A stretch of 64,000 bases of DNA from Opeltia flavorubescens (Eukaryota; Ascomycota; Lecanoromycetes; Teloschistales; Teloschistaceae). The DNA lies in assembly GCA_000442125.1 (NCBI GenBank), contig KE546965.1, positions 1,798,001 to 1,862,000 of the forward strand. Reading direction: 5' to 3'. Shown piece by piece: positions 34,762 to 62,644 of the stretch (its first letter is position 1; each line of letters opens with the position of its first letter). A model generated the notes under the pieces. The model did not search any database. It was given only the letters and a program-made list of their open reading frames with translations, and was not told the origin of the DNA. A program made the position numbers and the translations under genes.

Positions 34762-36609
34762 TCACCAAGTGAAACTCTCCTCCACGAAATCGACTACACC
34801 ATCCTGAACCTTCTCCCTCGCCGCAGCCCTCACCTCATCCGCAAATGCCCCGGGCCCGCATACTGTGATTGCCATCGCACCTGCCCTCTTCTCAAACTCC
34901 TCCTCGACAATCTTTCCCGGCTTGCACCTTCCCCCATACATCTGCACCTGTGTACTCCTGCTGACTACATCGCCCGCATGTTTCGGCTTCGTGACGAAAA
35001 GCAAGACCTTGAGAACTTGTCTTCGATGGGGCATCTGAAAGATCTCCGTCATCCACGGATGCACCCAGTCAAAGGCGTCTTGTGTACGAACAGACCAGAT
35101 GAGCACGATCTTACGAACGGCAGAGGTGGAGTCGTTGTATGTTTGGAGCAAGTCTCGAACGTGAGAGAGCTGGTGAGTGATGCCGACGCCGCCTGCGAAG
35201 AGGAGGACAGTGCCGTAGGAGTGAAGGGATTCGAGACCACCATAAGGTCCTTCAATGTACCCAGGGATATTGATGACGCCGGAAGGCGAAGCGAGGGCCT
35301 TTGCATGAAGCTTGGCGGTCATGCCTGATTTCTTGGACATGATTAGGGTGATTGAAGTGGTGGTTCGGGAAGGCAATGAGGGTCCAAGATCTTGAGTTGT
35401 GGAGGGCAGCTTCTCATCTTCGAGGGTCTTGTAGGGAGTCGGTCGAGTATCGTACCATGCGATCGAGAAGGGATGAGAACTGAGGGACCAAGTAAGAGTC
35501 GGGAAATGGGCGTAGACGTGGCAGCCCGGTCGGAGCTCCCAAGGTCGTTGAAGTTCGTAAGTGACTCTGCATGCTTCCGGAAGAGCCTCGACAGTGACAC
35601 GTGTGCTACTTGATAGGCTAAAATTGCGGTAGATGATCTTCGACCAACGAATGAAACGCTCGAGGAACCATAGAGCGATAGTCACGTAGACGTAGTTCGT
35701 TAGCGGGAGTTCGCCCTTGTGACCATGAATGGCAGCCCCGAGGAACGCGAAGAAGGCAAGGATCTGGTGAAGGTGTAGAAATGTCTCATAAGCCATATGA
35801 CGGATTGCCGACGAAGCTTGGATGAGGATGATAACCATGGCGATTACAGACACGAGACCCCACCCCAAGAAGGAATTACCATACAGAGCTCGCGCCATAC
35901 CATCTTGCTGGCCCATCATCTTATCGGCATAGTTCTTGGCTGCCATCCATGCAAATGTGTGAGCGAGCGACTCGATCACAACCAGCCTCGAGATCCATCG
36001 ATGGAAGATGTTGAATGTGTCGAAGCTGACTCGAAGCAGCGGAATGAGTGCATTATTGCGGCCAGCGAAAATCATCAAGGGCATCATATTGACGAATGCT
36101 AGATGGCCTGTGCGACCTCTCAGTTCGGCGAAGATGGCGGCTTTGTTGCATGATTTGTAGTTGAGAAAGCAGCAATATACGACGTTGCTTAGGATGTATA
36201 GAGTCAGCAGTGTGGTGTGAAACCGCGAAGGTATCGTCCCCATGTCCAGTCTTGCCAATGTGAGGTTCCGGTTGTGTCGTTTTCGGAACAACGGAGCGTA
36301 GACAAGGTTCTTCTTGAGCCATGGCCAAATGACTGAACCGTTCCGAGCCCAATATGACTGTTGTATCGGGTCTGTCCGGAGGTTGAAGAGGTGCCGTATT
36401 TTCGAGACGCCTCCCTGTACGAGTCTGCTGACTATGACGATTAGACACACGGTGATTATAGAAAGCCATAGCGAATATGTTGTGACATCGTCCATTTGTA
36501 GATTAACGCCCATTAGTCCATGTGTAAAATTGCTGGGCGCCATAGAGCAGATAGTGTAGTTCGACCCATCTTGTGGCCGTGGGAATCCATGTTCAGCGTT
36601 GCGAGACAT
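34762..36609 (-). CDS. Ferric reductase-like transmembrane oxidoreductase (FRE family)
   Basis: A single-exon gene of 615 residues from the ATG at 36609; further upstream the frame is open only through a GTG. A short N-terminal region with NFT and NYT glycosylation contexts precedes a first membrane segment (about residues 45-65). The ferric-reductase transmembrane domain follows, with the paired haem-ligand histidines in IFHRWISRLVVIESLAHTFAW and FLHLHQILAFFAFLGAAIHGH. The FAD-binding motif is HPFSIAW, the nucleotide-binding loop is LLFAGGVGITHQLS, and the end has VCGPGAFADEVR. Such enzymes move electrons from NADPH through FAD and two haems across the plasma membrane to Fe(III) or Cu(II) before uptake. 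It is divergent from a P450 gene. Confidence 0.92.
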   Translation of the reverse strand: MSRNAEHGFPRPQDGSNYTICSMAPSNFTHGLMGVNLQMDDVTTYSLWLSIITVCLIVIVSRLVQGGVSKIRHLFNLRTDPIQQSYWARNGSVIWPWLKKNLVYAPLFRKRHNRNLTLARLDMGTIPSRFHTTLLTLYILSNVVYCCFLNYKSCNKAAIFAELRGRTGHLAFVNMMPLMIFAGRNNALIPLLRVSFDTFNIFHRWISRLVVIESLAHTFAWMAAKNYADKMMGQQDGMARALYGNSFLGWGLVSVIAMVIILIQASSAIRHMAYETFLHLHQILAFFAFLGAAIHGHKGELPLTNYVYVTIALWFLERFIRWSKIIYRNFSLSSSTRVTVEALPEACRVTYELQRPWELRPGCHVYAHFPTLTWSLSSHPFSIAWYDTRPTPYKTLEDEKLPSTTQDLGPSLPSRTTTSITLIMSKKSGMTAKLHAKALASPSGVINIPGYIEGPYGGLESLHSYGTVLLFAGGVGITHQLSHVRDLLQTYNDSTSAVRKIVLIWSVRTQDAFDWVHPWMTEIFQMPHRRQVLKVLLFVTKPKHAGDVVSRSTQVQMYGGRCKPGKIVEEEFEKRAGAMAITVCGPGAFADEVRAAAREKVQDGVVDFVEESFTW

Positions 36610-38104
36610 AGCTGTAATTCGAGAGGACTTGAATTTGCTGTTAACCGCCTGCGGTGTATTACGGCTTGCACTGTACCGATAATTATTGGAGCTTGACAGC
36701 AGTAGAATCGAACCAAGAGCGGAGCGAAAGCTCCGGCGAGATACACCTACCGCTGGGTTTGAGGGATGCTCTGGGCCGTTTATTGAAACAATATTTGAGT
36801 ATATGATCAAATCCAAAAGTGACACCGAGGGAGGCCCAATATTATCTTGTGGCTGCTTGATAGAACAATGACGCTTTGTTAAATGATGAGGAATGGCCGC
36901 TTCGTCTTTGTTCGTGGTGGAAGCATCCTAATTAAAGATCCAAAATCTTTCTTTGTCACACGACTCGCAAGCTGGGTGCCTTGATGGCGACGAGGGGAAT
37001 CAGAGGTAAAAGTGAAAAGCTTGACGAGGCCAGCACGTCGATTACAAATGATTAAGAGAATATGATTTCGAATGTAAGAAATAAAGACCGATATGTGAGC
37101 TGTGCTTTTATGCAACGGAGTCAGTACTCTATGAGAAGATAATAAAGCCAAGGAAGAAAACCAGATTATGAGTCGGGGGGAGGCCATTGTTGTCATCAGG
37201 ACAATGGATGAAATATCGCAAAACAATGCGTTTCATTCGTCACGAATGGGACTCGAAAGAAAAAGGATAGGGTTCAAGACACATTGACAATAGGGAGGAA
37301 GATCATCATCCAATAGTCACGGAAAGGGGCTATGACTCTTCGTCGCAGAGGGATGCCAGCCGAGAGCTGGAGCCCATTGAGACTCAAGTAACCAGAGCTC
37401 TCGACACTGATGAAGCCTGAGCCTCTGGGACGCGTCATACTGGACAGCGTTCATGGCAAGAGCCATACGTGCTGCTTGAAGTTCTGAAACGTCGAGGGTG
37501 ATGGTAAACAGAAGTCGGATGAGGTTGACTGGTTCTCGACACTCAGCCCTAAAGTCGACCGCTTGCTCCTAATTCGCTACTAGCTCGGTCGTCATAAGGT
37601 ATCTCAGAGCATCGTGACTCACCCAATGAAATCTCGTCGCTGGCGACATTTGACCGCGACGCAATGGCTGTCGTTCCATTCGGTGAATATCATTGAGTCA
37701 ACGGATGTTTGATATAATCTGAATCGGTACAGCTCAATTAATACCTTTCTCAACACGGCTCGCCATGCTAGAAGCGCACCAATTAACAACGTACTCGAAT
37801 TGCATCTAGCACATCTCGCTCGTGTAGTTGCACGCCGTGTACAGGCGATGTTATAGCTCCCGGACCGAACAGCTATTGCTCCACTGACAGTTCGTACTAT
37901 CCATGCATAATTTGATGAAGATCCTTCTCTCTAGCTCGACATCGGGTGCTGTCACTCACCTCAAGCTTCAAGCTCGCCGCGTGCTGGCGCCAGAAGGTAA
38001 GGCGGGGCCAGGGTGAGATAGCTAAAGATATCATTATGTCGCACTTCCCTTCCTATGGAAGTATGCAAGACATCTTCCGTTAAATCTCGCATGTATGATT
38101 CAGC
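36610..38104. promoter_or_regulatory. Divergent promoter region, ferric reductase / P450
   Basis: About 1.5 kb between the two start codons. A GATAA core lies at 37138-37142, the type of site used by iron-responsive GATA factors, but the fuller ATCWGATAA consensus is not present. No other element can be named and no open frame here looks coding. Confidence 0.4.
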
Positions 38105-40164: not shown

Positions 40165-43135
40165 TTAATCCACCGCTTCTTCACAGCTGAACCACTCTTC
40201 CTCCTCATCCTCATTTCTCTCCTCGCCACACCCCTCCTCCTCCTCCTCCTCCTCCCGCTCTGCTTCCTCCACATCCACCTCCAACCCCGCCAATCGCCTC
40301 CATTCCTTAACCATAAGTTCACAAACCCCCACATGATAACACCGCCCATCCTTCACCGGATGCCACCTCTCATCAATCTCCCACTTCCCGCCACCATACC
40401 CGTCCCCCCCAAATCCCATGGCCAAATCCGTGGACAGTTCCACGGCCAAATCCATCGCTGCCTTTTCGTCCGCCCCTTCTTTCGTTGGCCAACACCCCCT
40501 CCTCAAATCCTCCTCTCCCATCTCCCACGAACTGAAAAACTTCTCCACCGTCTCCCCCACACTAGCGAGCCATTTCCCCTTTGGATCGTCCAAGTGGCGT
40601 TCGAACAGAAACAGAGGCACCCAATGCAACCTTGTCATGAACGCTTCTCCGTGTAGATCGTTCTTGTCGAGATTGTACTGCTTGCAGAAACGCTTTTTGA
40701 CCATCTTTGACGTTACGATCTCTTGGAGGAGGCGATTACAGGTGAAATATGCATTGTAGAAGCTTGCGTCGAGTCGGGGCTGCTCCTCTTTGATGCGGTC
40801 TCGGAGATTGGTGAGGAAGGCGATAGGGTCGGCGTTGATGTCTTGCTGTGGGGAAGATGGCTTCGAGGGTGAAGACCGCAGTTTTTTGGGTGATGCATTC
40901 TTCCTCTCTTGGACAAGCTTAATGAGATCGGAGGAATGGGTGTTAGCTTGCTCGGCTGTCGGGCAGAATTCATTCTTCAGCGCTTGCATGGTTGGGCGAA
41001 GCTGCATTAGATCTCTGGGGCGAGTCTTATCGTTTACCCGCTTGGTGCTACCCTTGCGAGGCTTACCGGCGGCGAAGTACTTGAGCGAGAAGCCGAGGAT
41101 GACGAGGTAATCTAAGGAAGTCTCCAAGTTAGCATGTTCATTTGTAGTGGACCGAGAGCAGTAAAGCGTATCTCGAAAGTCCCAAGGTTGTAATGATACA
41201 AGGCATGATGGGTTTGAGAAAGACTTACGATTCCGGTATGCCTGTGGTTTGCTAGGCGCTTCACCGAGGAAAATATTCTCGGGCTCGTAAAGCTTTTCCA
41301 GCGCCTCAAGCATAGGTATAGGTGCGGAGATGCAGCCCTCCTTCTTCAGAGCGTTGTGAAGATGAAGGACCGCTGTGACATCATAGAGCTTGTCCGCAAG
41401 ACGTATTGATATCGCCTGCATCATAAGGCAAGTGGCCGCAGCGATGGTTCCACAAAACAAAGTCTGATGAGTGATGAGGAAATATGGTTTTTGGCTTTGG
41501 GATTCATACTCGTGATTAGGCAGATCACGGTAATAAGACCGACGCCAGCGCAACATCGGGTCGTCCGATGTAAAGCGATCGTAACTATCCACGAGCATCT
41601 GGTATGCTCGGCAAACCTCATCATGTACTTTGGTACGTTCTTGCAATGGCTTAATGATGGTGTCTCGATGGCGGAAAAGCCGGGAACGCACAACTTCCAA
41701 GTCGACATATGGTCGGAACGTTTGTTCGCCGAGAACAAGATGGATGTCGCAGAGGATCTGAAAGGCGAAAGCAATGTATAGATATACATGCTTCGCATCA
41801 AGCATGTGCTTGAAAGCATCGGTAAGTTTGTCTCGGATGGGTATGATCCTATGCCTCGCCTGCAAACATAGCTCGGGGAGGATATTATCCATCAGCGTCT
41901 TGCTTCTGACTAGTTTCTGCACCGAATTGAGCTTGGAGACATCTTCTCGAGGGTCATATACACGGTTGACTTTTGGCGTCCAAATTTTGATCCAGTCGCA
42001 AAAATACGACGAGTTGCATGTATGTTGGAAATCCTTGAGCATTTGTGTACTGAAGTAGAATATCGACTCAAGATCTTCCACGTCCTGCTCGACCCATGCG
42101 CTTGGCTCTGACTGCCAATGGTCCGTGATGTCAGGGAATAGTACCTCGATTAGTTCGTCCCAATAAGGACTTTCTGGAAAATCGACTCTGAATTTGTCTT
42201 CCCAATTGTGAGCGAGCTCGATGGCTGTATTTGTGACCGCTGTAGCATTGATGAGGCTGATACTTTCTTCTCGATATTCCGTCCAGGTTTCCTGAATGCC
42301 CTTTCGGGTCTTCTGTAGTCTCTCGAGCAAATCATACATCGCTATGAGCCTATCCTCGTCGGTTGATTCGGCTTCATAGATCTCTTTGGTCCCGATCGGC
42401 TGAGGCTCGATCTCTTCCGATCGATGAACTGGATCATCATCCGCCCCCAACAACTCTGTTATATCTGCCACGTCTTTAGGGTCCTCAACACTCAGCTTTG
42501 AAAACCGATGCCCATCTTCTGCGACTTCGTGGACATCTGCCACATCGTCAGACGGAGTGACATGTTGAAGTATTAGCACACTTGAAGAGTGTAGCTCAAG
42601 CATCGCAAGCACGTCTTTGAGTACGCCAGTGAAGTGGACGTGGTCTTCTGTACTTCGCTCAATCTACAGCATGTCGCCGTTAGCATCTCCTCACTATAGA
42701 AACGGAAAGATCGCTGGGAACTTGGAGAATACCCTAATATAAGGGTTTATTGCGCATAGAATTACTTACTAGAATATCTCCAACCATGTGCTTGCAAAAC
42801 CATGTAGTACATCTCTCACGGTCCGCGATAGACTTCTTGAGATATTCCATGATGTAGTTCGGAACGCTTCTTTTGTGCTTCTGCGCGGCAATAATGAAAT
42901 CCACTCGATCAACGATCTCGTAATATGGAACGGTATACTTGGTCGGCTTACTGGGATCATCCGATTGAAGTGTGCTAATGGAGCCGGATTTGCTATGTTT
43001 GGCTTTTTTGCTGGAGTTTGACGTTATTGGGTTTCGATAGCCGTATGAGTTAGATGTCGAGATAATCCAGTGCAAGATTGGCGACTCGTAAGCTTTATAT
43101 CTGCCGTAAGAAGTTGAAATCGCTTCAGGCAACAT
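40165..43135 (-). CDS. DUF6604 domain protein with acidic tail
   Basis: Exons 43135-42770, 42663-41229 and 41111-40165 give 915 residues from the ATG at 43135. The N-terminal part (SYGRYKAYESPILHWIISTS, YEIVDRVDFIIAAQK, SVPNYIMEYLKKSIADRERC) is the DUF6604 domain known from fungal proteins of 800-1000 residues. The rest is helical with no enzyme motif. The end is strongly acidic (runs of Glu), encoded partly by a CCT/AGG trinucleotide run at 40233-40253. The second intron is 117 nt, has GTAAGT, a GCTAAC branch and TTAG, and contains no stop, so reading through it would add 39 residues. I favour splicing. No signal peptide; probably soluble. Function unknown. Confidence 0.85.
40233..40253 (-). 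repeat. CCT/AGG trinucleotide run
   Basis: Seven tandem CCT units on the plus strand, read on the minus strand as a run of glutamate codons in the acidic tail of the DUF6604 protein. A potential length-variable microsatellite. Confidence 0.8.
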
Positions 43136-48028: not shown

Positions 48029-49610
48029 TCATGAGCACATCCTTTCCGATCCCCCCTCCCATCTCGATACAACTCCAAATGTCCTATCGATGTGTCTCCT
48101 TGTCCGATGGCAGATGTCCTCTTCACTAAATACACCCACACAAGCCACTCTCTCCATGACTCTCCAGATATCCTTCTCGGTATCGAGGTTGCCCATATTG
48201 TTCAACCCATCCTGAGTCTTGGTAGCAAAGATCCTGTCTCCATAGTTCAGCTGCTCCCAAATATTGCTTTTATGATTGGAGATAGAGCCCTTGAAAGTCA
48301 CCTCTTCCTCTTTAAGCCGTTGTTCAGTCGACAGTGCGGAAATATCCTCAGCGCATTCGCCGCACATCAGTCGACGGACGCTTAATTTGATGAAATTGCT
48401 ATGTAGGAACAGTGGCATGAATTTGCTTTCATGTGTAGGGTCCGCTTGCATCATCGCCATGCCAGTGCCCATTCCATGTCCAGTGCCGTCATTGTAGTAC
48501 TGGGTTTCCAAGTGGTGTGATATCATAGTCCAATTTGCCTTTAAAGCTCGTAAAGCTGTCGGAAATGTATCTTTATCACCCCATCCAGGACCCCCTTGGG
48601 TGAACAGGGTGTAAAAATAGGTTGGCCCGAAGTAATTGTAATATGCTGACAGACAAAGCGACTAATGGTATTAGCAAAGGATTAGATAAGAAATGCCCGG
48701 AATGTCTTCACGATACCTTCCAATGCTTCTCTTTATTCCACAACATCTGTCCAGATTCTGCTGTTTTGAAGTGAGGGACGGTGTTTGACTTCCTAGGAGC
48801 CTGACCTGTGATGAAGGGAGTAAAAGGGGATTCGGTAGCGAACCAGTAATCGGGCCATAGAACAGCGCCAGTGTTCATATAGGCTGGTGCATCAAAGACA
48901 TGGTCTGGATTGATAACAGGCAGGCTATCAGCGTCTAGATAGAGCACTTCTTCGAAAGATGAGAACATAATAGCCGGGATTTTCAGCTGGTAATGATGCG
49001 AGAAGGCAGACATGTCCGATAAGTAGTCACTGACAAAGCGGCAAGCAACTCCCTGTGACGACAGCTCCTCGCACCAACCCTCCTTCTCTTCAATGGGATC
49101 TATCATCCAGACCTCTACCGGAAGGCGACTGCCTAGAAGACGGATCATGCCGAGCGTCGTGGCAGCGATCTCCGAGTACTTGCCGCCAGCGAGGATGACA
49201 ATTCCACGGCCTGCAAAAGCTCCGACTGGATGATTAGGAAGGCTCTTGACTACGGCAGTATGCTCATTTCGCATGATCATGGCTTCGGGGATGCTCATCC
49301 CCAGGTAGTCGGCCAATACACGGGCGGAACGAGTTATCACCTTTCCGGCCTCGAATGGGTGATAATTCAAATCCAGATTTGGGGGGTGAGCTTCGAATAT
49401 GTCCTGGAGCTGATCCCATTGTTCCGATACTTCGGTTGAAGTCTCGTGGATGGGAGGGAAGGCTGCCGACTCGCAAGGCCATTCGTCATCTTGAAGGAAC
49501 GAGACTTGAGGATCGAACGAGAGGCGAGGATGGCAAACTTTGAGGATCAATAGTATGACAAGAATGCAACCCAGGGTTCTCTTGGAACGGCAACTGGTAT
49601 AAGGCCGCAT
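48029..49610 (-). CDS. GT71 alpha-1,2-mannosyltransferase (MNN2-like), type II membrane protein
   Basis: Exons 49610-48717 and 48661-48029 give 508 residues from the ATG at 49610; the longer frame begins only with TTG. A basic N-terminus (MRPYTSCRSKR) and a membrane anchor at about residues 12-26 give type II Golgi topology. The catalytic domain contains AGRGIVILAGGKY, GSRLPVEVWMID, the metal-binding DxD motif in LYLDADSLPV, and NTGAVLWPDYWF. After the intron come GPGWGDKDTFPTAL and the late DGTGHGMGTGMAMMQADP segment. The pattern matches GT71 enzymes such as MNN2/MNN5 that add alpha-1,2-mannose branches to mannoproteins. Intron 55 nt, phase 0. It is divergent from the patatin gene. Confidence 0.9.
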
Positions 49611-50778
49611 AGAAAAGCTCCTCAATTCAGAAAGGACGAGACGAGCTATCAACAGTCAAAGGAGTAGGAATTCACATTTGATGACAAGAAAAACTAAGGA
49701 TGATATGAATGGTATTTCTTTTTTGAAACCGCTACATTTCACTTCACATCTTCGAGCGGCGACGCCCTACTCTAGAGTGTTACACGATCCTGAGTTGTCT
49801 ACTAGCGCTTGGCGGAAGAACAGGACGATGCCTGGATGCGACCCGAGCGTTTCGGTAATAAATAGAAAACATCTGCACCGAGAAATTGTAAATTCAGACC
49901 GGGAATTGTTGTGCTTGTAAGCAATAGTAGAGAATTTAAGTAATTAGGAAAAGTTGGTAAGGAGGATTTGTAGGAATAATCGGAGGATTAGCAAAACGGA
50001 GTATGAGGTGTGAAGATGGTTGTTGGCGACCTATTGTGTGGCGCCGCACTAGTCAGGGGTGGAAAGACAGGGGCCTCCAACCGAGGACGCGGGGACGTCG
50101 CTTTAATGCGAAGACGCATCAATAATTTGTAACCCACCTCCAAAGCCTTGTCATACAATTTCACTGATAATGCGTACTGGAAGAGGTGGTGAGCTTCGTT
50201 CCAATGGTCGACCGTAAAGTAATCAAACGATACCAGATGTGGAACATGTATAATCTAAAATTGTAAGCAATGCGAGTTATTAAAGGAGCTCTATCCTCAG
50301 GGACACCTCATGGCGGTTGCCGACCCACCATGATGGAGTTCAGCCCCAGTGGAGGGGAGATGTTGTCGTGTTGGAGTGTTTGATAGCTTCTTGAGTGGTC
50401 AGACAATCGTCCGGATGAAGCAGGCCCAAGACACACATTCAGCGAACCTGCAGGATACAGCCTCGCGAATTTGGCTCCTAAGACCTTCCAGGATGGGCGC
50501 TCATCTCGGATGGAGGTGTGAGATTTGTTCTGACAGGACGTTTATGGCGCCGGAAGCTGGCACGAGAAATCTAGGCTCCTCGGTGGTAGGTCATGGAGGA
50601 AATAGGACATTTCAGCCTCAAGCGTTTACGATAAACAGCACCAGCATGCATAACGTAGCCTTGTGTCATCAAACCCTCGAAAATTTTTCTCTGTGAATTT
50701 AAGTCAGGCTATGATCCAGCCGATCTCCCTCCCTTTTCTTGGTGCAATTTCCCTATACCTTTGGACTAGCCAGCGTTG
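49611..50778. promoter_or_regulatory. Divergent intergenic region, GT71 / patatin gene
   Basis: About 1.17 kb between the two start codons. A 115-codon open frame at 50349-50696 has no recognisable feature. No regulatory site can be named. Confidence 0.45.
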
Positions 50779-53700
50779 ATGGCTCAGTTAACCAATCCAC
50801 TACAATCAAAGATTAACATTCGTTGCGAAGGTTCTGGATGTACAGGTGCACCCTCTACTCCAAAATCTATCTGTTTAAATTGCAGCTCGACATATTGTGA
50901 CACTTGCTGGGACAAGCAAGGTCCACATCAACCTGGCAAGACTGGTCCTGATGGCCTTCCTCACGAAAAGACCGACAGAGAAATCTACGAGCGGCTACAA
51001 CGGATTCTTGACCCGCCGGAAAGTGTCTCGGAACTTAGTCTTCTACACCAAGAAGATGAGAGCACTACTTGGTTTGGTATAGAAAAGGACCTCAATGGCC
51101 CTCCAGTCTTTCAAGACCATGGCCGTTTCGCCGCTCTCATGGCTGATACGAGGCAACCAAATGCTGGCGTGAGATACCCTCAATTGGTCTCTTTTGTTGG
51201 GGAAACAGGTGAGCATTGCTCGAACTGGGGCATATTATCCCCCAAAATCTAAAACATGGACTATAGGAGCTGGAAAGAGCACTCTAATTAAGATGCTTGT
51301 GTCCCTGAAAGAGCATAAACTTCAAATGCATGCCGATTTACCATTCGAAAGTCCGGTGGTTGGCTCCATGAAGCATGACAAATCGCCTACTTCTGGTGAT
51401 GTCCATCTTTATGCGGATCCAGAGACTGCGTACACCAGATTACCTATGCTCTATGCTGACTGCGAAGGACTTCAAGGTGGTGAAACGGAGCCTGCAGCCA
51501 ACAAGTTGCGGCAAAAGAACAAGAACAATCACAACAACGTTCAAGGGCGACAACGCTTCTTTAAAAGCCAGCCTCGCGAGCTCGTCTACGCGAAGTCAAA
51601 CAGTGAAGCACGAAACAGAGAGTGGGCTGTCAAAAAAGTGTATCCTCGCCTGCTTTATACCTTCTCAGACGTGATAGTCTTCGTCCTGCGAAACACGAGG
51701 TACGATACTTTCATGGTTTGGTCATGCTAGGCTCACGACATAGGACTTTTGAATCATCTGCGCTTACACTACTTCTTGATTGGGCGTCGACGTCGCTCGA
51801 ATCTTCCATCAATCAACCAACAATCCCGCACGCAATCATTGTTCTTAACGCCACAAATCCAGGCATTGATCATGACGAATGGGACATTCCCACGGCAACT
51901 GAGCGCTTGATGCAACACGTCCGCAATGCGGTGTATGAGAACCCCTTCTTTGTCAGATATGCTGAACATTGGCGAAAAAAGGGGAGAAGGATCAACAACA
52001 TGTTGGACCTTGTCCGCTGCTATTATGCAGATATATCTGTTGTCCGTATTCCGGAAAAGGGCCGTTACATGTTGACCAATTCTCAAATCAATAAGCTACA
52101 CCACAAGATTGTTTTGCACTGCGATGCATCGTTCAGCGCGAAGGACGATGCACATATGCTGTCCAATGTTGAAGAGCTGGATGCATACCTCCAAGCAGGT
52201 TTCGACCACTTCACAACAAAAGAAGATCAACCGTTCAATTTCGTTGACGTGGCTCTTCGTAACAATCCTATTCCTCGCGATTTTGGAGACCATATCCTTG
52301 CCATGGCAGCGAAGATCAGAATAGTAACGAAAGTATGTGACGGTCCTCACCTCTTCAAAATTCTCAGCTCCATGGTTGCATCATGCATCTTCACTGATTG
52401 CATAAGAGCAAGCAGACCAGGTAAGAGTATCCTTTTAAAACTCTAGGCGTTGAGGCTTATCTTTTCACCTACAGGCAAAGCTTTGGACCTGTTCGATAAA
52501 TTCTACGCCAATTCTTGTGTGGCAGCGCTTGAGCATTTCTGTGATAAATACTGGCCCTGCAGCTTTGTCAGCAGAAAAGGTAAANCCTGTGTGAATGTTA
52601 AATCTTCGCATGTTGCCAAAGGCCATCAGACTGCGGGCGGCAGAATAATCTCATCCGGGAATTACGTGTCCGCATTTTCCTCCTTTAATTTCTCCAATCA
52701 ATGGACAGTCTTCCTCAAAAGTCAATTGAAGCGAATCGAGGCCGAATTCCACAAAATTCGAAATGCTACCATGCCAAAAAAAGACGACCCTTTGACTGTT
52801 AATGACAGGAGGCTGGCATACGATCTTCACAAAAAATGCATGGGAAGCTTCTTCCGCTCTTACGAAGGATACAGTGCATCAAAATTTATAAGTCTTACCA
52901 CGTGTTATTGTTGTCTTATGGAGGTTCCGGAGCATCCTTTGCAGTGCGGCCACGTGCTATGCACCGTATGCGTCAAAGCATACGGGTATGAGAATGACTC
53001 TCACTCGGTAGTCATGGATTATTGCCCACTTCATCCCGCCAATAACTTTGATAGACCTTGGATCATCCATTTCAAACCAGCGTATGCTGGCGTGAGGGTA
53101 CTTGCACTCGATGGGTTCGTTAGGGTTCTATAAATCAAACTACGGGCCTTGACTAATTGGACACAGTGGCGGCATGCGTGGTATCTTGGAGCTTGAGGTT
53201 CTCAGAGCTGTTGAGCTGGCACTTGGCGGCAAAATCCCGATTCAAGCATTCTTTGATCTCATCGTAGGCACAAGGTTTGTCTCCCCTAGCTAAATATCGA
53301 GCAATTACTGAATCGCTCTTTCAGTACCGGTGGTATCATAGCCCTTGCACTTGGCGTAAAGCAATGGACTATCAATCAGTGTGTCACTGAATTTGTTAGA
53401 CTCTGCGATCAAGCATTTACTCCCCGGGAGTTTAACAATCTTCATGGGCTCCAAGAAGCGACAACTTTGTGGCACGGAAGCAAATACAAAACGAAACCCC
53501 TCCGTGAGGCTCTTCACTCGGCCTTTGGAGAAGAACCGTTGTACGGCGGGAGGCGGAAAGCACATCTGAATTACACTACTCAAGTCGCTGTCACAGCTAC
53601 TTCGGGCACCGGCGAGAAAGGACTGGTCCTGGCAAATTATAGTCGACCTGAAGAGAGCGAGCCAAGCTACAGGTTCGAGTTTCCTCATTATCTACAAATC

Positions 53701-55511
53701 TGGGAAGCAGCAAGTGCCACTTCTGCAGCGCCATCATTTTTCAAGCCATTCTCGACTACTAAATATCCATTTAGAACATACCTTGACGGCGCACTGTATC
53801 ACAACAATCCAGCTAGCGTTGCAAACAATGAAAGGAAGTTTTTGTGGCCTGATGTTGCTGAGAACAGTCCTGATATCCTTCTTTCTCTCGGTACCGGCAA
53901 ATATGGTCGACAGATAGAAGGACAGATAGCGGAACTTGGACCTCTCCCAAGCAAGCAACAACAGACAACACGATCAAGTAACCCGGACATGGCTTCAAAG
54001 TCAAAACGGAAAGCCAAGCCCACGTGGAAGCGAGGAAATTCGTACAAACTTGTAGCTAAGTATTTCAGTGTTCTCGTCAGTCTTCCNCATGCTTTCATGC
54101 TTGACTGTGGTATGTGTTCCGCATGCACAGGACTGACAGGATCAAGGTAAACCGAATCGACAGTATTCTAGATGCAGAGATTGGTTGGAAGCGATTTCGC
54201 AATGACATATCCGACGCAAAGGAAGGACAAGTACTGGAGCCGCGCTTCATCCGCCTGAACTTAGACTTGGGCCGCGAGCCTCCAAGATTAGACGAGAATA
54301 ACAGGCTGGCAGAGCTTCAAGATCTGGGTACACGGTTGCTCAAAACGGATGAATACCGAACCATCATTGAAAGAATAGCTCACATGCTGGTTGCTAGCAC
54401 CTTCTATTTTTTGAAGGAACGGTTCTGGTATAATGAAGACACTGGGACGTGGACTTGTACAGGTACGCATTGCTTTCTCGTATGAAAAGTCCGAACCGTG
54501 CTTGTTGTGCTGACCTGGTTTTAGGGAGAATCGTGTGTCGATTCGAAGGAAAACTCCTGGAATCACGTAGCAATATGCGTGCGCTAGGAGACCATTTACG
54601 ATATCAGCAGTCACCTGGTTATCAACCGTTTTTTACGGTCAAGGGCAAGATCGATGATCCTGACAGACATCAGGCAAGTGGCCGAAATCCTCAGGATATA
54701 GCTATTCTAAGTTGCCATTAGATACCCATTACCGAGAGCATGATTGAGGGGATGATCAACAGAGCAGAATTTCGCTTCAATGACCCTATTACAATAGAGA
54801 TACCGGCCTTGCTTAGCTCTACAACAATCTATCTCAAGATGAGAGGCATTGAAAATGAGCGAACAAGCTTTTATGCTATAAGCGGCTTCCCTAGAAGATT
54901 GATTGCCGAGGATACGATAAATGGTACGTTTAGCTATTAGCATAATGATTAGTCTGACTCAACGTCCAGAAACACGACTTGACAAGCGGGCGGAGCTCAT
55001 CAAAGAGCGCCGCTACGGTCATCTCGCTGTTGCCAATGACCCCAAGGTTGCCGTGTTGGGTAATCGCGATCATGCACCGGAAACGCCGCCAAAAGATATT
55101 CAAGATGACAACAACGATGGGGAAGAAGGTGTACCAGCCACAAGAGACAGCGCCGAGGTTGCCCCCACTGCTACTGCCGGAAAAAGGACTCCCAAACGAG
55201 ACTCTTCCCATTCTCTGGTTTCCCAAAGATCCCGTGGTTCTTCCTCTATGCCAAAGACAACCCAGCAGAGAGATTCAATTGTCGAACTGAGAGCTCAAGC
55301 GCAGAGTGCGGCTCGGGATGGTCATGATGGGTTGATTACGATTGAGGATGGGGATGAACTTGCAAGGAGGATTTCTCCAGCATTAGCGTTGGGTGCTGCT
55401 AGGGTAAGCGTTGGTATGGAGGAACCGAATCTTGAGAGTGACGACTCCGATGGGCCACCCTTAGAGGAAGAGGTAGAAGGGGAGGTGGAAGTGGGAGAGA
55501 AGGATAATTAA
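50779..55511 (+). CDS. Zinc finger / P-loop GTPase-like / RING-like / patatin phospholipase protein
   Basis: Ten exons: 50779-51208, 51267-51699, 51744-52420, 52475-53114, 53167-53274, 53325-54075, 54147-54462, 54525-54673, 54722-54923 and 54970-55511, in phase, giving 1415 residues. Residues 16-62 form a B-box/ZZ-like finger (Cys16, 21, 32, 35, 40, 43; His50, 62). A P-loop GETGAGKS lies near 141-148, with DCEG at 208-211 like the G3 motif of GBP/atlastin-type GTPases. A cysteine-rich RING-like segment (CYCC, CGHVLC, then C and H) is near 660-705. The patatin domain has the oxyanion loop DGGGMRG, the nucleophile motif GTSTGG and DGALYHNNP with the catalytic Asp. The tail is acidic. One undetermined base (52585) makes one residue unknown. 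Related fungal patatin proteins act in germling or heterokaryon death; that role here is inference. Confidence 0.88.
54674..54721 (+). other. GC-AG intron in patatin gene
   Basis: The exon ends CAG, the intron begins GCAAGT and ends CCATTAG, 48 nt. It is the only junction that joins the upstream frame (DDPDRHQ) to the downstream frame (IPITESM) in phase 0. The donor matches the known extended consensus of GC-AG introns. Confidence 0.75.
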
Positions 55512-55872
55512 TTGCGTGATGAAATGATGAGTCATGCCCTGTAATCACTTACCATTATGACCGGACCATACTACTGTACTACATATAAGATTGACTAGAG
55601 TACATATGTGTGCGTTGGGTAAGGACAACGCTGGCTAAAAGTTTGTAAAGCTAAGACTTGGTCTTGTAAAGGCAACAGTAGCGCTCTTCAGCTGGTGCAC
55701 CTTGCGTGGCGGAGAGCTCAGTAATTAGTCCAGGCATCAAAGCGATAACGCAGAAGTCATATATTTACTCAAAATTTCTTTTACTCTCAAAACAATGACC
55801 CCAGCATGGGAGCAAATATGGCAGACATCGGCTTGAGAAAAATATGGATAAGATTGAAACGACTCATTATGC
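55512..55872. other. Intergenic, convergent 3' ends
   Basis: About 360 bp between the patatin gene stop and the end of the small membrane-protein gene. Nothing recognised. Confidence 0.5.
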
Positions 55873-56441
55873 CTATTTCGGTTTCAATGGTCCTTCCCCA
55901 GCGACCACTTTCCTCTCTACATCCTCCACGCTCTGGCTACTTGTGAGCACATGCCCTACCGTCGCCACAACGCTGCCCGCTGCCGCTCCTCCTACGATAG
56001 CTCGCCACGTCGAGAGGCCTGCTGTAACTCCTCCAGGTCGCCTCGTCATGATCCCTATGCCCACAGCCCCTAGTATCAAGCCTCCAAAACTCCAATCGTC
56101 CTCTCTATTTTGCGATTTTTTGCGAGTATTCGCCAGCTCCGGTCTTGCCATTCTACCTCTCCACGACCCCACATACGACCTACCATTGCGAAAGCTGTGA
56201 ATGCCGTGAAGCCAAGACTGCCGATGGCTGCTGAGGAAAGTAGTCGTGTGGTCCATGGTAGTGGTTTGAGGAGGCCCGGTCGACGAAGGATACCTGCGTA
56301 CGCGGAACGTGCGAATGGCGCGAGAAGGCCGAGTACTGCGCCGGTGGTGAAGCCACGGTGAAGGCAGTGGACTGTGAGAATGGTATAAGCAGAAGGCTGA
56401 TCTTCAGCATAGGGCGGGTGCGGGAATAATTGAGGTAGCAT
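55873..56441 (-). CDS. Small membrane protein, frame broken at a poly-T run
   Basis: The ATG at 56441 starts MLPQLFPHPPYAEDQPSAY, then several Gly/Ala-rich hydrophobic segments (TTGAVLGLLAPFA, SSAAIGSLGFTAFTAFAMVG), then WQDRSWRILA. The frame then diverges. The continuation EDDWSFGGLILGAVGIGIM...KVVAGEGPLKPK lies one frame over, ending at 55873. The change falls at or near a run of six T (56116-56121; six A in the coding sense). A seventh base would restore one continuous protein of about 190 residues. Alternatively, a GTAGAA...AGAGAG intron could join the frames but would remove the WQDRSW segment. Segment spacing suggests a Tim17-like or mitochondrial inner-membrane protein, but the family is not recognised with certainty. 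Could be a base-calling error or a true mutation. Confidence 0.6.
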
Positions 56442-57283
56442 CGTTACTGGAGGAGGTATTCTGCTTTCCTTTCTGCTTTGAGCGAATGAAGGTAGATGCG
56501 GACGTCGACAGCGGTAAATGTATCAAGTACACTATATTACGGATGATTCAAATGCTTAATAGGGACATTATGGGTCTTGTGTGATGCCCAATGGACCACA
56601 CAAGGACTGCGAGGAGGCATCAGAGCGAAGTTCGTGGATACCAGAGCACGCCGCGTGGTGGCTGGACATCCGCCAGCGGGAAGGCGCATTGGTAATCATA
56701 AACGGTAATCGGACCTTTTCGCTATAGCTGTCCAACATTTTGTAAAGTGATCCAGTATGGGGCCATGCCGTGCATTTTGTTGAAAAGATCAGCTCTTTTG
56801 TACTTCATTACCCTCACACAATGATGGGAAACTTCTGGCAGTGGGAAATCGTCAAGGTGACATCTGCCGAGGTCCAATGGAATGGCCCCCAAATCCAGGA
56901 CCTGCAGCTATGCATTACCGATCTCTGCTAGTTTGTAACAATACCTCCCCCTGGCTAACGGGCTTCATTGGTTATTTCGTTTGCTGGGGCGCTGCGGCTG
57001 AGCTGCTGAGAGGTTGGGAGTGGGATCAGTCATTTCTAGCATAGCAAGAAGAGTTTCTGCTGTAGCAGAACTTGTGAGCTATTGTATAACCATGCGGCGA
57101 CTGACTTACACCTTGAGTGCCAACTCAAGCAGGTCTTGATTGGTATCAATGAACGACTGTCTCTCTACGGCATTAGTGTAGCTGTAAGGTTTGACTCCTC
57201 TGGATTCCCATTTTCTTCGACTCTTTATACTCAACAGGCTCAGGATCGGTACTTCGAATTCATGTCACCTTGTCAATACGACC
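56442..57283. promoter_or_regulatory. Divergent intergenic region upstream of NACHT-ankyrin gene
   Basis: About 840 bp between the two start codons. The NACHT-ankyrin frame is open for 93 nt upstream of its ATG but starts only with TTG. No specific element recognised. Confidence 0.45.
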
Positions 57284-60200
57284 ATGTCTGCTCCCAGCAG
57301 GAACCAAGGTCCGATGGATCTCTATGTCCGGGAAAGCAAATCAGACACGCGTCCGCCCAAAGCCTCTGTACAAAAGTCAGGATATGTATCGAGTCTATGG
57401 GAAGTTGCTGCGAGCAGGTCCAAGAAAGCACTACCGCAGGAGATAGTCGATGCTGATCCATCCAACATACTGCTCAACGTTTGTGATGAAGCAAAAGCAC
57501 GCCAGGACGAGTCAGAACGGAAGCAATGGAAGGTCAAAAAGCCTGGAAAGAGCGGCGAAGAGGTGAAACTACGCGAGGTTTATGGAGTCATCGTTTCTTG
57601 TGCAGAAAAATTTCGTGATGTTGGAGATCTTGTCGTTCAAGCAGATCCAGTTCACACGGCCCTTCCGTGGTTGGTCATTCGAACATGTCTATCGGTCGGT
57701 ATCAATGAGCATGAGATGTACGGTATTATGATTCAAGGACTGGAAATGGTGTCCGGTCTTGTAACCCATTACGTTGTTATAGAGCAGATATTTGTCCTTG
57801 AGGAGTCCGATCATGCGACAGCTGTCAAAAACTCGCTACTGGCTCTGTACACGGCCGTCATGGACTTCCTGCTCGAAGCCCTCGGCTACTTTCCTCCCGT
57901 TCATCGCGAGGAAGACGAAAAGCATTGGTTTCGCCACAAGGCTGCTTCTGGCGCTGCTAAGGTTAAAAGAGCTTTTCACGTTTTAGACCCCACAGCACAA
58001 GCTACTACCCAAGGTCTCCTCAATACAATTTCAAAGGCGAAAGCGAACGTTGATGCTGATGCAAATCATGCCTATGCTAATAAAACCATGGACACCTTGG
58101 GGGAGTTTGGGCATGTTCAGGATCGAATACTAAGACAGCTCGAAAGTAATGGGCTGGACCAAGTAGAAAGGGATCGGCGCTTGAGCGCTATCCTATCGGA
58201 ATTCCATGATCCACTCTACTCAATGGACGATAAGGTTTCTAGTCTATACGACCAGATGGAGACGACACAGCGACGAGCTGAAGTTAGCCGTGTCCTGGAT
58301 TGGATTTCACCTGCAGCACAAGAAAGCAAGCGAGAAACTTACCACAAAAACCTCAGCAGCCCGAGCCATCGCCTCAAAAGTTCTGGCCGTTGGCTTTTGG
58401 AAGACCCAGAGTACTTGCGGTGGCAGGGTTCCAAGACCTCGTCCGTTGGCTGTCTAAGTGGGATTGAAGGCACAGGAAAGACTTTTCTTATTTCTATTAT
58501 TATTGACCACATGCGTAAACAAATTTCAGAGAATGGAAGTGCAGAACACTTGGCATTTTTCTATGCTTCAGCGCAGGAAGGCAGTTTCTGGGGCCATCCC
58601 GACGAAGTGATTCGAAGTATAATCCGCCAGCTTTCCGTGACGCAGACCGGAACGACACTTGAGTCCGCCACCAAGCAGAAGTACGACGAACTCACGTCAA
58701 CAAGCAGCGAGCCCGCACGACCGGTGATGTCAGAATGTATCGAGATTGGAGTTGCGCTCGCTAATGAATTCCCTATAACCATTATCCTTGACGGTCTTGA
58801 CGGCTTACATGCAAATAATTCGAATTTGCAGAGCTCGCGTAACGATTTGATCGAAAGTTTGAATGAAATTGTGAAAAGATCATCAAATCCTGTCAAGTTA
58901 TTTTTTTCTGCCTTTTCGGACGGACCAGCCGAAGCACGGCTACGAAGGGTCTTTTCTAACCCTTCCATGGATGATACGAACCCCCCAACGAATGAAAATT
59001 GGCAATTCATCGAGGTCAACGCAGCGAAGAATTCGGAAGATGTTGGTGACTATATTGAGAAGGAACTCGCCAGGAGAGCCGCCAGTGGTGATCTGCTTGA
59101 CGGAGAGGTGGATGAAGATCTCAAAGTAGCAATCAAGAGCCGTTTGCTCAAACGATCAAACGGGATGTTTCGATATGCCACAATGCAGCTTGATCGTCTT
59201 TGTGACGATAGGTTGGATAAGATCACGGTCCTCGAAGAGCTTGACAAACCGTTACCTGGAATAACGACCTTCTATGATAATAGCGTCGAGGAAATTAGGA
59301 ATGAGGGCATTGATCGAGTCCGTGTCACCGCCCAAAATACCCTGAGGTGGCTCCTGTGTATCCAGGAACCGCACCTGCCTCTCAGCGCTTTGCTTGAAGC
59401 TCTTTTGGTTGAAGGGGGCATAGACAAGCCCAAGGAAAGTAACATCCACAGCGCCTGCCGTAGGCTAGTCAAGACAGATCACTACAACGGAACCCTTGTT
59501 TTCACACATGACTCTGTCAGAGAGCATCTGATCAGCATACCGGAGTATAGTAAGACTGATTGCCATCTTGCAGCAGCAGAGCGCTGCTTACGGATGATGA
59601 TCACGGCTGCCTCGTCTGTCAGTCGGCTGTCTGCTACCCAAGTTCGTTTTTATTGGTACGCCAAACTCTATTGGTCTCTGCATTATCAGAACATCAATTT
59701 CGAGGACGTCTCGGATGAGAAAGTATTAGATGAAGAACGGCAAAAGGCTTTTAGCCGGGTAAAAGAGCTGGTCAGAAAATTCCTCATGCAAGGCCATAAA
59801 ACCTCACCAGCTTTCAACAAATGGATGGCACAAATCCCTGATTTTGTACGAGAGTTAGGGGAGGAGCATCCACTCTCCTCACAGCTCAAGTCACTGCAAG
59901 CATCACTTGAGGATCCTCTGCATGTCATATGTGTCTTTGGTCTGGCACCGATAATTGAAGCTCATTACAAGCACCTCGATTTCAATCAGCGTAATGTACA
60001 TGGACAAACGGCGCTATGCCTTGCGGTGGAAAACAACCAAAAAGCAACAGTTGAAGCTTTATTGATCCATGGTCGAGTCGATGTCAACGAGTTCAATGTC
60101 AAAGCCGTTCATCAGTTACAAGAGCAAAATTTCTCTCCAGTTGTCTGTTATGCCAGCGCTCTTCAAGCGGCAGCTGTTCGGGGTTCCAAACCCATTGTTG

Positions 60201-62644
60201 AAACACTTATCGACCATGGTGCTAGGGTTGGACTTGTAGCTGGCTACTACGGAAGCGCTCTCCAAGCCGCATGCTTCAACGGGCATGGAGATGTTGTTGA
60301 ATATCTGCTTACTGAAGGCAAGGCTGATCCTAACAGCCAAGGAGGCTACCACGGAAATGCCTTGCAAGCAGCCGCAGCGAGTGGGAATTTACAGATAGTC
60401 GAGCGCTTGCTTGAAGCTAATGCGTGTGAGATGGTGAGTGGTGGACATTATGGCTCGGTCATAATGGCTGCGATATGTGCTGGTAGCAAGGAAATCGTCG
60501 ATTGCCTGCTAGCCCATACGGTGGATCCTACGCTCCTCGTCAATATACAGAGCCCGACGTATGGGACACCGCTACAGAGAGCGGCCGTTATCGACAGGAT
60601 TGATATTGTGGACTTACTGATCGCGAATGAAGCTGACATCAACGCACTTGGTGATTCCAAAAAGGAGGGCGGGCCCAGTGATTCGACGAGCGCTCTTGCC
60701 ATTGCTGCGTGGGGCGGCCATAAAAAGATCGTCTCAATCCTGTGCGGTCTCGGCGCGGAGGCTGATATGTCCTACAAACGTAACGAACTGCACCTTCTAC
60801 ACCAAGCCGCAATGCATAACATGATAGATCTGATCAAATATTGTCTCGATGCGGGCTGTGACATCAACATGGTTACTGATAAGGGCCGTCGTTACCACGA
60901 CGCTCAGGGCAATATGACGCCTTTATCTTTTGCGAGTGCCGAAGGCAACCTTGAAGCCGTCCAGATACTGCTGCAAAATGGGGCTAAGATCAAATACCCC
61001 AAGGACAAGATACCCACCCTCCACCTGGCAGCCCGTCTGGGGCATCTAAGCGTCGTGGAAGCGCTTTTGAAAGAGCATAAAAATCGGCACATCCAGAACG
61101 CCCAACTCACGCTTGACTACATCAACAGAGGCACTGAGAGTCGAGGGAGCACCGCTTTGAAAGAAGCGGTCCATGCTGGATCCCCAGACATAGTCTCACT
61201 ATTGCTCGCAAGCGGAGCCACTTTCACTCCTGGTAAAGACGGCGTCGGACCACTGCACGTAGCGGCATGGGATGGCAAACCTCGAATTGTCAAGATCCTA
61301 GTCGGACATCTGGAAAGAGCAGCAAGCCCGGAGTTGTGCGCGCAGATTAACGCCCGGAACAGATGGGGGAAAACCCCGTTACTCGATGCAGCTCACCGGA
61401 ATCGTTTCAACGTCTGCAGATTCTTGCTAGAACATGGTGCAGACTACACGATTGCAGATAATGACTCCAACTCTATACTGCACTATGCAGCTTGGCGTGA
61501 TAACCACGAATCTGTGAAGTCAATACTGGATGCCATCCAAAATGGAGCGACTGAGACAAGAGCGAATCTTCTGGCTATGAAAAATAAGAATGGAAACACG
61601 GCTTTGCAGGAGGCGCTATATCGAAAAAATTCTCAAGTCGTGCAACTGCTAGTCGCAGGTGGAGCAAAGGTTACGCGCAGTCATCGTCGTGCATATCTCC
61701 TGCGCTTTGCTACTGAAACAGGAGTCGAAGTATTGGAACGACTCATCAAGGCCTTTGATGGTTATCCTGAAGAATTGAGAAAGTTCCTGAATCATCGCAA
61801 CTCCGCCGAGGGGTATTCCATCCTCCACGATGCGGCCGAACATGACCGCCTGGATATGGCAAAACTTGCACTTGAACATGGCGCCGACCCAACTACGATG
61901 GATGCCGAAGAGGGCCTTGACCCCTCCAAAGTGGACGTGAAGACCGCCCTTCACGTCGCGGTATGGAAAGGTCGTAGAGACATCGCTGATCTCCTGCTCT
62001 CCTACGCGAAAGAACAATGTGATAAGGAAAAACTCGCCCGCTTCATCAACCACAGAAACAGCGCTGGCAAAACCGCCCTCATTGATGCCGCCGAACGAGA
62101 TCGCCCGGAATTCATGAAGCTTCTCCTTGAGGAACCCTACAATGCAGACTGGTCCATAACCGACAACAGTGGCTTCAACGTTCTCCATTATTGCGCTTTC
62201 CGTGGCCACCGCACTTGCGTTGCTCTCCTCCTCCGCCATGCCTCTTCTGCTAGGGATGACAACAAGATTCGCTTCCAAGCGTTCCTCAACCAACAATCTA
62301 CCGATAACAAAATCCCACCCCTGCACGACGTTACTGCGAGAGGATTCAAGGACATTGCAATGCTGCTGCTGGATACTTATGGCGCGGAGTACGAAATCTA
62401 CGACGTTCATGGCGATTCTATACTCCATCGATCTGTGCAGGCGAATCAGGATGATGTTTTGTTGCGACCATATCTGGAGTGGATGATGGGGAAGAAGGGG
62501 GAAGGAGAGAGGGAGAAGGTGAAGAGGGTGGTGGGGAAGAAGAACTCGAGTATGGGTAGGACGGTGAGGGAGGCGCTTTTGGTGAGGGGGAAGAACGAGG
62601 CGGCGGAGATGGTGGGGAAAGTTGAGAAGGAGTTGGGGCTGTAA
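57284..62644 (+). CDS. NLR-like NACHT-ankyrin receptor, single exon
   Basis: 1786 residues in one uninterrupted exon from the ATG at 57284. Residues about 105-235 match the fungal NACHT_N domain (FRDVGDLVVQADPVHTALPW, MIQGLEMVSGLVTHYVV). The NTPase follows with Walker A GIEGTGKT at 392-399 and Walker B ITIILDGLDGL near 500. A winged-helix-like region runs from about 670 to 780 (NTLRWLLCIQEPHLPLSALLEALL, FTHDSVREHL). From about residue 895 to 1760 there are around twenty ankyrin repeats, many with standard TALHVA and LLL.HGA cores. The tail is Lys/Glu-rich. Such STAND proteins are fungal counterparts of NLR immune receptors, and relatives control heterokaryon incompatibility. The ligand, and any partner effector, are not visible. 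N-terminal effector domain is not a HET, HeLo or lipase domain. Confidence 0.92.
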   Translation: MSAPSRNQGPMDLYVRESKSDTRPPKASVQKSGYVSSLWEVAASRSKKALPQEIVDADPSNILLNVCDEAKARQDESERKQWKVKKPGKSGEEVKLREVYGVIVSCAEKFRDVGDLVVQADPVHTALPWLVIRTCLSVGINEHEMYGIMIQGLEMVSGLVTHYVVIEQIFVLEESDHATAVKNSLLALYTAVMDFLLEALGYFPPVHREEDEKHWFRHKAASGAAKVKRAFHVLDPTAQATTQGLLNTISKAKANVDADANHAYANKTMDTLGEFGHVQDRILRQLESNGLDQVERDRRLSAILSEFHDPLYSMDDKVSSLYDQMETTQRRAEVSRVLDWISPAAQESKRETYHKNLSSPSHRLKSSGRWLLEDPEYLRWQGSKTSSVGCLSGIEGTGKTFLISIIIDHMRKQISENGSAEHLAFFYASAQEGSFWGHPDEVIRSIIRQLSVTQTGTTLESATKQKYDELTSTSSEPARPVMSECIEIGVALANEFPITIILDGLDGLHANNSNLQSSRNDLIESLNEIVKRSSNPVKLFFSAFSDGPAEARLRRVFSNPSMDDTNPPTNENWQFIEVNAAKNSEDVGDYIEKELARRAASGDLLDGEVDEDLKVAIKSRLLKRSNGMFRYATMQLDRLCDDRLDKITVLEELDKPLPGITTFYDNSVEEIRNEGIDRVRVTAQNTLRWLLCIQEPHLPLSALLEALLVEGGIDKPKESNIHSACRRLVKTDHYNGTLVFTHDSVREHLISIPEYSKTDCHLAAAERCLRMMITAASSVSRLSATQVRFYWYAKLYWSLHYQNINFEDVSDEKVLDEERQKAFSRVKELVRKFLMQGHKTSPAFNKWMAQIPDFVRELGEEHPLSSQLKSLQASLEDPLHVICVFGLAPIIEAHYKHLDFNQRNVHGQTALCLAVENNQKATVEALLIHGRVDVNEFNVKAVHQLQEQNFSPVVCYASALQAAAVRGSKPIVETLIDHGARVGLVAGYYGSALQAACFNGHGDVVEYLLTEGKADPNSQGGYHGNALQAAAASGNLQIVERLLEANACEMVSGGHYGSVIMAAICAGSKEIVDCLLAHTVDPTLLVNIQSPTYGTPLQRAAVIDRIDIVDLLIANEADINALGDSKKEGGPSDSTSALAIAAWGGHKKIVSILCGLGAEADMSYKRNELHLLHQAAMHNMIDLIKYCLDAGCDINMVTDKGRRYHDAQGNMTPLSFASAEGNLEAVQILLQNGAKIKYPKDKIPTLHLAARLGHLSVVEALLKEHKNRHIQNAQLTLDYINRGTESRGSTALKEAVHAGSPDIVSLLLASGATFTPGKDGVGPLHVAAWDGKPRIVKILVGHLERAASPELCAQINARNRWGKTPLLDAAHRNRFNVCRFLLEHGADYTIADNDSNSILHYAAWRDNHESVKSILDAIQNGATETRANLLAMKNKNGNTALQEALYRKNSQVVQLLVAGGAKVTRSHRRAYLLRFATETGVEVLERLIKAFDGYPEELRKFLNHRNSAEGYSILHDAAEHDRLDMAKLALEHGADPTTMDAEEGLDPSKVDVKTALHVAVWKGRRDIADLLLSYAKEQCDKEKLARFINHRNSAGKTALIDAAERDRPEFMKLLLEEPYNADWSITDNSGFNVLHYCAFRGHRTCVALLLRHASSARDDNKIRFQAFLNQQSTDNKIPPLHDVTARGFKDIAMLLLDTYGAEYEIYDVHGDSILHRSVQANQDDVLLRPYLEWMMGKKGEGEREKVKRVVGKKNSSMGRTVREALLVRGKNEAAEMVGKVEKELGL

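Follow-up and report, generated by a model that had tools for sequence, protein, structure and literature searches.

What kind of switch could control a patatin-like phospholipase when switch and lipase are encoded in one polypeptide is the question raised by a gene in a 64,000-nucleotide stretch of DNA (hereafter, the window) from the ascomycete Opeltia flavorubescens (GenBank assembly GCA_000442125.1, contig KE546965.1, positions 1,798,001 to 1,862,000). The gene lies on the forward strand, with its ATG at 50779 and the end of its stop codon at 55511, the same span as that given in a previous sequence-only reading, which had proposed a GBP/atlastin-type GTPase, rather than a NACHT or NB-ARC domain, as the switch of a patatin effector that also bears B-box-like and RING-like zinc modules. 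In the window protein the order of the domains is B-box-like, GTPase, RING and patatin. A search with the whole protein returned 626 proteins at E ≤ 1e-3, and the architecture is therefore not due to chance. The row counts given below refer to 121 aligned rows, namely the window protein and 120 listed homologs of these 626.

The coding sequence is predicted to consist of 10 exons with 4248 nt and to encode 1415 amino acid residues without any internal stop. Its nine predicted introns of 44–71 nt (eight GT-AG and one GC-AG, the latter at 54674-54721) were picked by hand from splice sites and reading-frame continuity, and this sequence-based model agrees with the homologs, which are colinear with the window protein across 85–90% of its length. 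Because the gene is spliced, only fragments of it appear in the list of open reading frames (ORFs); a frameshift or pseudogene was considered and rejected, since the introns account for the fragmented entries. There are two unknown bases, at 52585 in the coding sequence (residue X) and at 54087 in an intron. Only Patatin exceeds its Pfam cut-off in the window protein, and the P-loop and zinc-finger matches fall below.

The P-loop G-x4-GK[ST] (GETGAGKS in the window protein) is present in 117 of the 121 rows, and the D-x-x-G motif DCEG (residues 208-211) in 120. In the structure comparison of a relative, the P-loop region matched the GBP/atlastin-type GTPase fold, and the listed matches include GBP1/GBP2, atlastin, RNF112, Sey1 and SMG9, at 11–14% identity. 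All of the 50 rows listed in each of two GTPase-region comparisons are GTPases or GTPase complexes. No Pfam match to NACHT or NB-ARC was found in the window protein at E ≤ 1, and neither occurs among the best 50 rows listed in each of four structure comparisons, so that the NACHT/NB-ARC reading is disfavoured and the proposed GBP/atlastin-type fold is borne out among the structure matches listed. GBPs and atlastins carry an arginine in the P-loop (R48 in GBP1 and R77 in atlastin), and their class has R-D at G4 instead of N-K-x-D. At the fourth P-loop residue, the 120 homologs have Asn (60), Gly (52) or Ser (3) and never Arg, the pattern being not found in five; Arg is likewise absent from the 113 proteins having the pattern among 120 listed from a second, more distant subfamily. 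The G4 position was inferred from the strand that it ends, not from residue-level superposition; there, N323 is invariant (121/121) and position 326 is D in 92 rows, E in 20, N in 4, S in 3, H in 1 and Y in 1. Thus, N-x-x-D/E is found in 112 of 121 rows, the family form being N-x-T-D/E, not R-D. The window protein has NATN, and position 326 is H in P0001, N in P0002 and S in P0003, its nearest relatives. It is known that a change from Asp to Asn at the G4 Asp position shifts some GTPases toward xanthine nucleotides. Hence the proposal of a GBP/atlastin-type GTPase stands for the fold, the P-loop and DCEG, but not for the P-loop arginine and G4.

The cysteine cluster previously called RING-like behaves as a RING. 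It has eight ordered ligands (C-x2-C ... C-x-H-x2-C-x2-C ... C-x2-[CH]; C657, C660, C671, H673, C676, C679, C697 and H700, the last being His), all of which are C/H in 112 of 121 rows, and a ten-sequence profile of it found 17 PDB sequences at E ≤ 0.1, all RING E3 or TRAF proteins by name (best TRIM34, 2.2e-4). The N-terminal finger is B-box-like by its ligand pattern: the eight ligands (C16, C21, C32, C35, C40, C43, H50 and H62) are all C/H in 87 of 121 rows, and 30 of the other 34 rows have a gap at a ligand column. The Pfam B-box match is below cut-off in the window protein, and zf-B_box reaches E ≤ 0.05 in 5 of 32 members (best 0.0014), so that this earlier assignment holds for the ligands and not for the Pfam family.

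The patatin catalytic core is complete in the window protein, as had been claimed, with the GGGMRG oxyanion loop, GTSTGG (S763) and DGA (D917), and the Pfam match (E 6.6e-24) covers residues 723-929. In a PDB sequence search the best matches were the CapV phospholipases of the bacterial CBASS system (9.3e-14), followed by iPLA2-beta (3.9e-9) and plant patatin (6.5e-4), and CapV was also matched by Foldseek (E 1.2e-14). The NCBIfam model CBASS_lipase scored 117.4 bits with this patatin, under its curated cut-off of 200 bits, compared with 70, 48 and 19 bits for other patatins of the same genome and no match for a fourth piece.

The listed homologs range widely over ascomycetes. A precomputed Patatin domain is recorded in 119 of the 120 (the exception, P0010, is apparently degraded) and the label PF28431 in many of them, and the source annotations read 'FabD/lysophospholipase-like', 'calcium-independent phospholipase A2-gamma' or hypothetical. 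One Septoria record is titled 'Zinc finger, RING-type, patatin-like phospholipase', and the RING-patatin pairing has therefore already been noticed in annotation. The window protein groups most closely with P0002, P0005 and P0001 (from Pyrenodesmia, Kuettlingeria and Bathelium), and next with Exophiala, Pyrenula and Endocarpon records. The family is frequent enough to be expected in laboratory fungi as well. In the genome of the window (34.4 Mb, 23 contigs) two family members were found, the window gene and a copy at C3:89355-93460 on the reverse strand (L015), which has about 36–48% identity to P0003 by exon, NKSD at G4 and the patatin Ser retained. A C-terminal SPRY domain is precomputed by Pfam in four of the 120 listed homologs (P0045, P0059, P0077 and P0079, all lichen records) and ankyrin in two (P0045 and P0079); such tails would fit target sensing. 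A search with the GTPase piece listed, for the most part, short fragments of environmental or draft sequence. The second subfamily (154 proteins at E ≤ 1e-3, best 120 listed) was found from L016, a gene with P-loop, ADCEG, RING and patatin. L016 lies on contig NYXK01000209.1, which is labelled as a Deltaproteobacteria metagenome-assembled genome and is probably fungal contamination of a bacterial bin. A bacterial origin was not upheld, because this sole bacterial-labelled match is split by introns and reads as fungal; for a viral origin, none of 33 pattern matches in viral contigs was confirmed, both contig scans being narrow, with a few conserved peptides as query. Similarly, P0063 was deposited as cork oak (Quercus suber) and is placed among the fungal proteins of the clade described next, probably through fungal contamination of a plant assembly.

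The patatin Asp (D917) is kept in all 121 rows, whereas position 763 is Ser in 72 rows (the window protein included), Gly in 47 and a gap in 2. The dyad is thus intact in the window protein and in 72 of 119 ungapped rows, and its Ser is replaced by Gly in 47 of 119; this degeneration in the Gly rows does not refute a GTPase-switched effector for the window protein. Of the 47 Gly rows, 46 form one clade (support 0.997, or 0.996 when rooted with L016), and only P0007 (Geoglossum) falls outside it. Ser is likely ancestral since L016 has Ser. Zymoseptoria, Cercospora, Fulvia, Hortaea and Friedmanniomyces are among the genera represented in the clade, and in Friedmanniomyces endolithicus a Ser protein (P0021) occurs beside Gly proteins (P0092, P0093 and P0107). 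The P-loop, DCEG, T185, the G4 D/E and the patatin Asp are each kept in 46 of 46 members and the RING ligands in 45, and the GGG and Arg of the oxyanion loop are also retained. In five bins of matched GTPase distance, the patatin/GTPase distance ratio is 1.38–1.83 in the Gly clade versus 1.03–1.10 in Ser rows, where the pairs are not independent and the ratio would be raised equally if the GTPase had slowed in that clade. From the same means, the RING/GTPase ratio is 1.33–1.68 versus 1.08–1.33, and the patatin/RING ratio 1.01–1.19 versus 0.77–0.98. We read this as a GTPase that is best kept and a patatin that is relaxed, rather than as proof of which one changed. What the clade does show is a maintained GTPase in proteins where standard patatin chemistry cannot take place. 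Since the GTPase motifs are kept while the patatin diverges, the switch has a role beyond lipase catalysis, and the family evidently keeps more than lipase activity. The Gly clade could thus serve as a natural separation of function, in which GTPase and RING act without a working lipase.

We propose, with slightly less than even confidence, that the patatin effector is gated by GTP-driven self-association and that it probably serves in stress or cell-death signalling. The protein would be a cytosolic multidomain effector, whose N-terminal GBP/atlastin-fold domain would bind guanine nucleotide and self-associate once loaded; this self-association would cluster or unmask the C-terminal CapV-like patatin, which would then cut membrane phospholipids and thereby produce a lipid signal or damage the membrane locally. 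The RING, located between the GTPase and the patatin, would probably contribute either ubiquitin-ligase activity or a scaffold bridged by zinc. In the Gly clade, the lipase step would have been lost and the GTPase-RING part would act alone, the patatin fold being perhaps kept as a lipid- or partner-binding module. Dimerisation with GTP is known for both GBPs and atlastins. CapV and CapE have been solved as filaments, as judged from PDB titles, and the Neurospora protein PLP-1 self-associates in cell death according to the available text of PMC12881547. Given these three precedents, nucleotide-driven self-association is the simplest synthesis. Several points weigh against this proposal. The domain is GBP-like in fold and not established as GBP/atlastin by mechanism, because it has no arginine in the P-loop and no R-D at G4. 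As for the likeness of the patatin to CapV, the VIA ranking places patatin-17 (31.4) ahead of CapV (29.7) and iPLA2-beta (29.5), and the affinity to CapV is to be read with regard to NCBIfam and PADLOC holding mainly prokaryotic families and to PADLOC having been run on two homologs only.

The fold matches to Sey1 and atlastin, the conservation across a wide range of ascomycetes and the finding of two copies in the window's genome, unlike the large and variable NLR repertoires, would also suit a constitutive enzyme of lipid remodelling or trafficking, whose GTPase acts at internal membranes in the manner of Sey1 and atlastin and whose patatin trims lipids, with no role in immunity or cell death. 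We consider this rather unlikely, since a clear transmembrane helix is lacking (19-residue hydropathy means peak at 1.75, within the patatin core), the occasional SPRY or ankyrin tails suit sensing, and the loss of Ser in a whole clade would be odd in a housekeeping lipase. The Gly clade, with its retained GTPase motifs and RING ligands and its raised patatin/GTPase ratio, together with the resemblance of B-box, RING and occasional SPRY to TRIM proteins, could instead mean that ubiquitin ligation is the ancestral core output of a GTPase-controlled, TRIM-like RING/B-box protein and that the patatin mainly binds lipids or targets the protein, its catalysis being dispensable. However, Ser and Asp are intact in all 72 Ser-type rows, where the patatin is constrained like the GTPase and catalysis thus matters, and in the Gly clade the RING, too, has the faster divergence when set against the GTPase and is hence not the best-kept part; as the E3 activity is putative and the last RING ligand is His, we judge this explanation unlikely.

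It is highly improbable that the protein is an ordinary patatin NLR, a STAND protein whose NACHT or NB-ARC domain has diverged. Fungal NLRs with N-terminal patatin do exist, nearly all of them with NB-ARC in the available text of PMC12258605 and PMC4986451, but here the patatin is C-terminal, neither domain is matched in Pfam at E ≤ 1, and the listed structure matches of the GTPase region are GTPases or GTPase complexes. Returning to the proposed GTP-gated effector, its widest form would be an unrecognised fungal innate-immune or cell-death switch without a STAND ATPase, in which a GTPase of GBP fold is combined with a TRIM-like RING/B-box and a CapV-like lipase, loading with guanine nucleotide and self-assembly set off the attack on membrane lipids jointly with ubiquitin signalling, and one lineage with a pseudo-enzyme lipase keeps the GTPase-RING switch; this we offer as a speculation with little probability behind it.

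In the window, a long single ORF begins about 1.7 kb downstream of the patatin gene and is predicted to encode a typical fungal NLR-like protein of 1817 residues, in which an NPHP3_N/NACHT-like P-loop domain (PF24883, E 2.7e-24) is accompanied by numerous ankyrin repeats. A linkage of the two genes was not upheld, as short opposite-strand ORFs intervene. Within the patatin protein itself, a strand-rich conserved module (residues 1064-1180 of the Glonium homolog P0015, about 1110-1236 of the window protein) lies outside the listed structure matches. The features are collected in Table 1.

Table 1. Positions of the exons of the patatin gene and of other features in the window
Feature	Position	Strand	Basis
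Ferric reductase	34762-36825	-	Pfam
Cytochrome P450	38548-39747	+	Pfam
DUF6604	40165-42612	-	Pfam
Putative mannosyltransferase	48708-49652	-	Pfam
Whole patatin gene, 10 exons, 1415 aa	50779..55511	+	uninterrupted spliced model; colinear homologs
Exon 1: B-box-like zinc site (residues 16-62), start of GTPase domain, P-loop	50779..51208	+	
Exon 2: remaining P-loop (AGKST), PTSGDVHLY (candidate G2), ADCEG (G3)	51267..51699	+	
Exon 3: GTPase core with G4-like NATN (323-326), then helical region	51744..52420	+	
Exon 4: helical linker, RING finger (C657-H700); holds unknown base 52585	52475..53114	+	
Exon 5: patatin start (GGMRG) as far as GT of GTSTGG	53167..53274	+	
Exon 6: patatin core, nucleophile S763 and D917	53325..54075	+	
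Exons 7-10: remaining patatin-aligned fold, strand-rich module ending in SGFPR motif, variable low-complexity tail	54147-54462, 54525-54673, 54722-54923, 54970-55511	+	
Short ORFs between patatin gene and NLR-like gene	55844-56441	-	
NLR-like gene	57191-62644	+	Pfam

No description of a GBP-fold GTPase-RING-patatin architecture was found in the literature searched (subscription papers and preprints lay outside its scope), nor in the available text of PMC9815663, PMC10197012, PMC3689799, PMC10714772, PMC4986451, PMC12881547 and PMC12258605. Compared with GBPs and atlastins, which like RNF112, Sey1 and SMG9 show the low identity given above, the window protein lacks the P-loop arginine, has N-x-T-D/E rather than R-D as its family form of G4, and is fused to a RING and a patatin. 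With the fungal patatin NLRs (PLP-1 of Neurospora, Pa_1_11380 of Podospora and vic2 of Cryphonectria) it shares the presence of a patatin effector and a nucleotide-binding domain in one polypeptide. Those NLRs are almost exclusively of NB-ARC type (146, 95%) in the available text of PMC12258605, and PLP-1 is described in that of PMC12881547 as patatin, NB-ARC and TPR with the patatin N-terminal, whereas the window protein has the GTPase fold first, the patatin last and two zinc modules. The patatin domain is also in common with CapV/CapE of CBASS, CapV being the best PDB sequence match; unlike the window protein, CapV is a stand-alone lipase gated by a bound cyclic dinucleotide. TRIM and TRAF6 RING proteins are alike in the RING profile matches, the B-box-like N-terminus and the SPRY of four relatives, and differ in that the order here is B-box, GTPase, RING and patatin and the last RING ligand is His. 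NTE/PNPLA6, one of which is encoded in the window's genome (L001), likewise has a patatin and a P-loop-like domain in one protein, but carries cNMP-binding and NTE_Ploop domains, and the window protein matches neither Pfam family. Nucleotide gating of patatin effectors is already known, by NB-ARC domains in fungi and by cyclic nucleotides in bacteria. A gate of GBP/atlastin fold, if true, would be a different activation logic, and parts known from interferon-induced GBPs, TRIM proteins and CBASS lipases would be united in one fungal protein.
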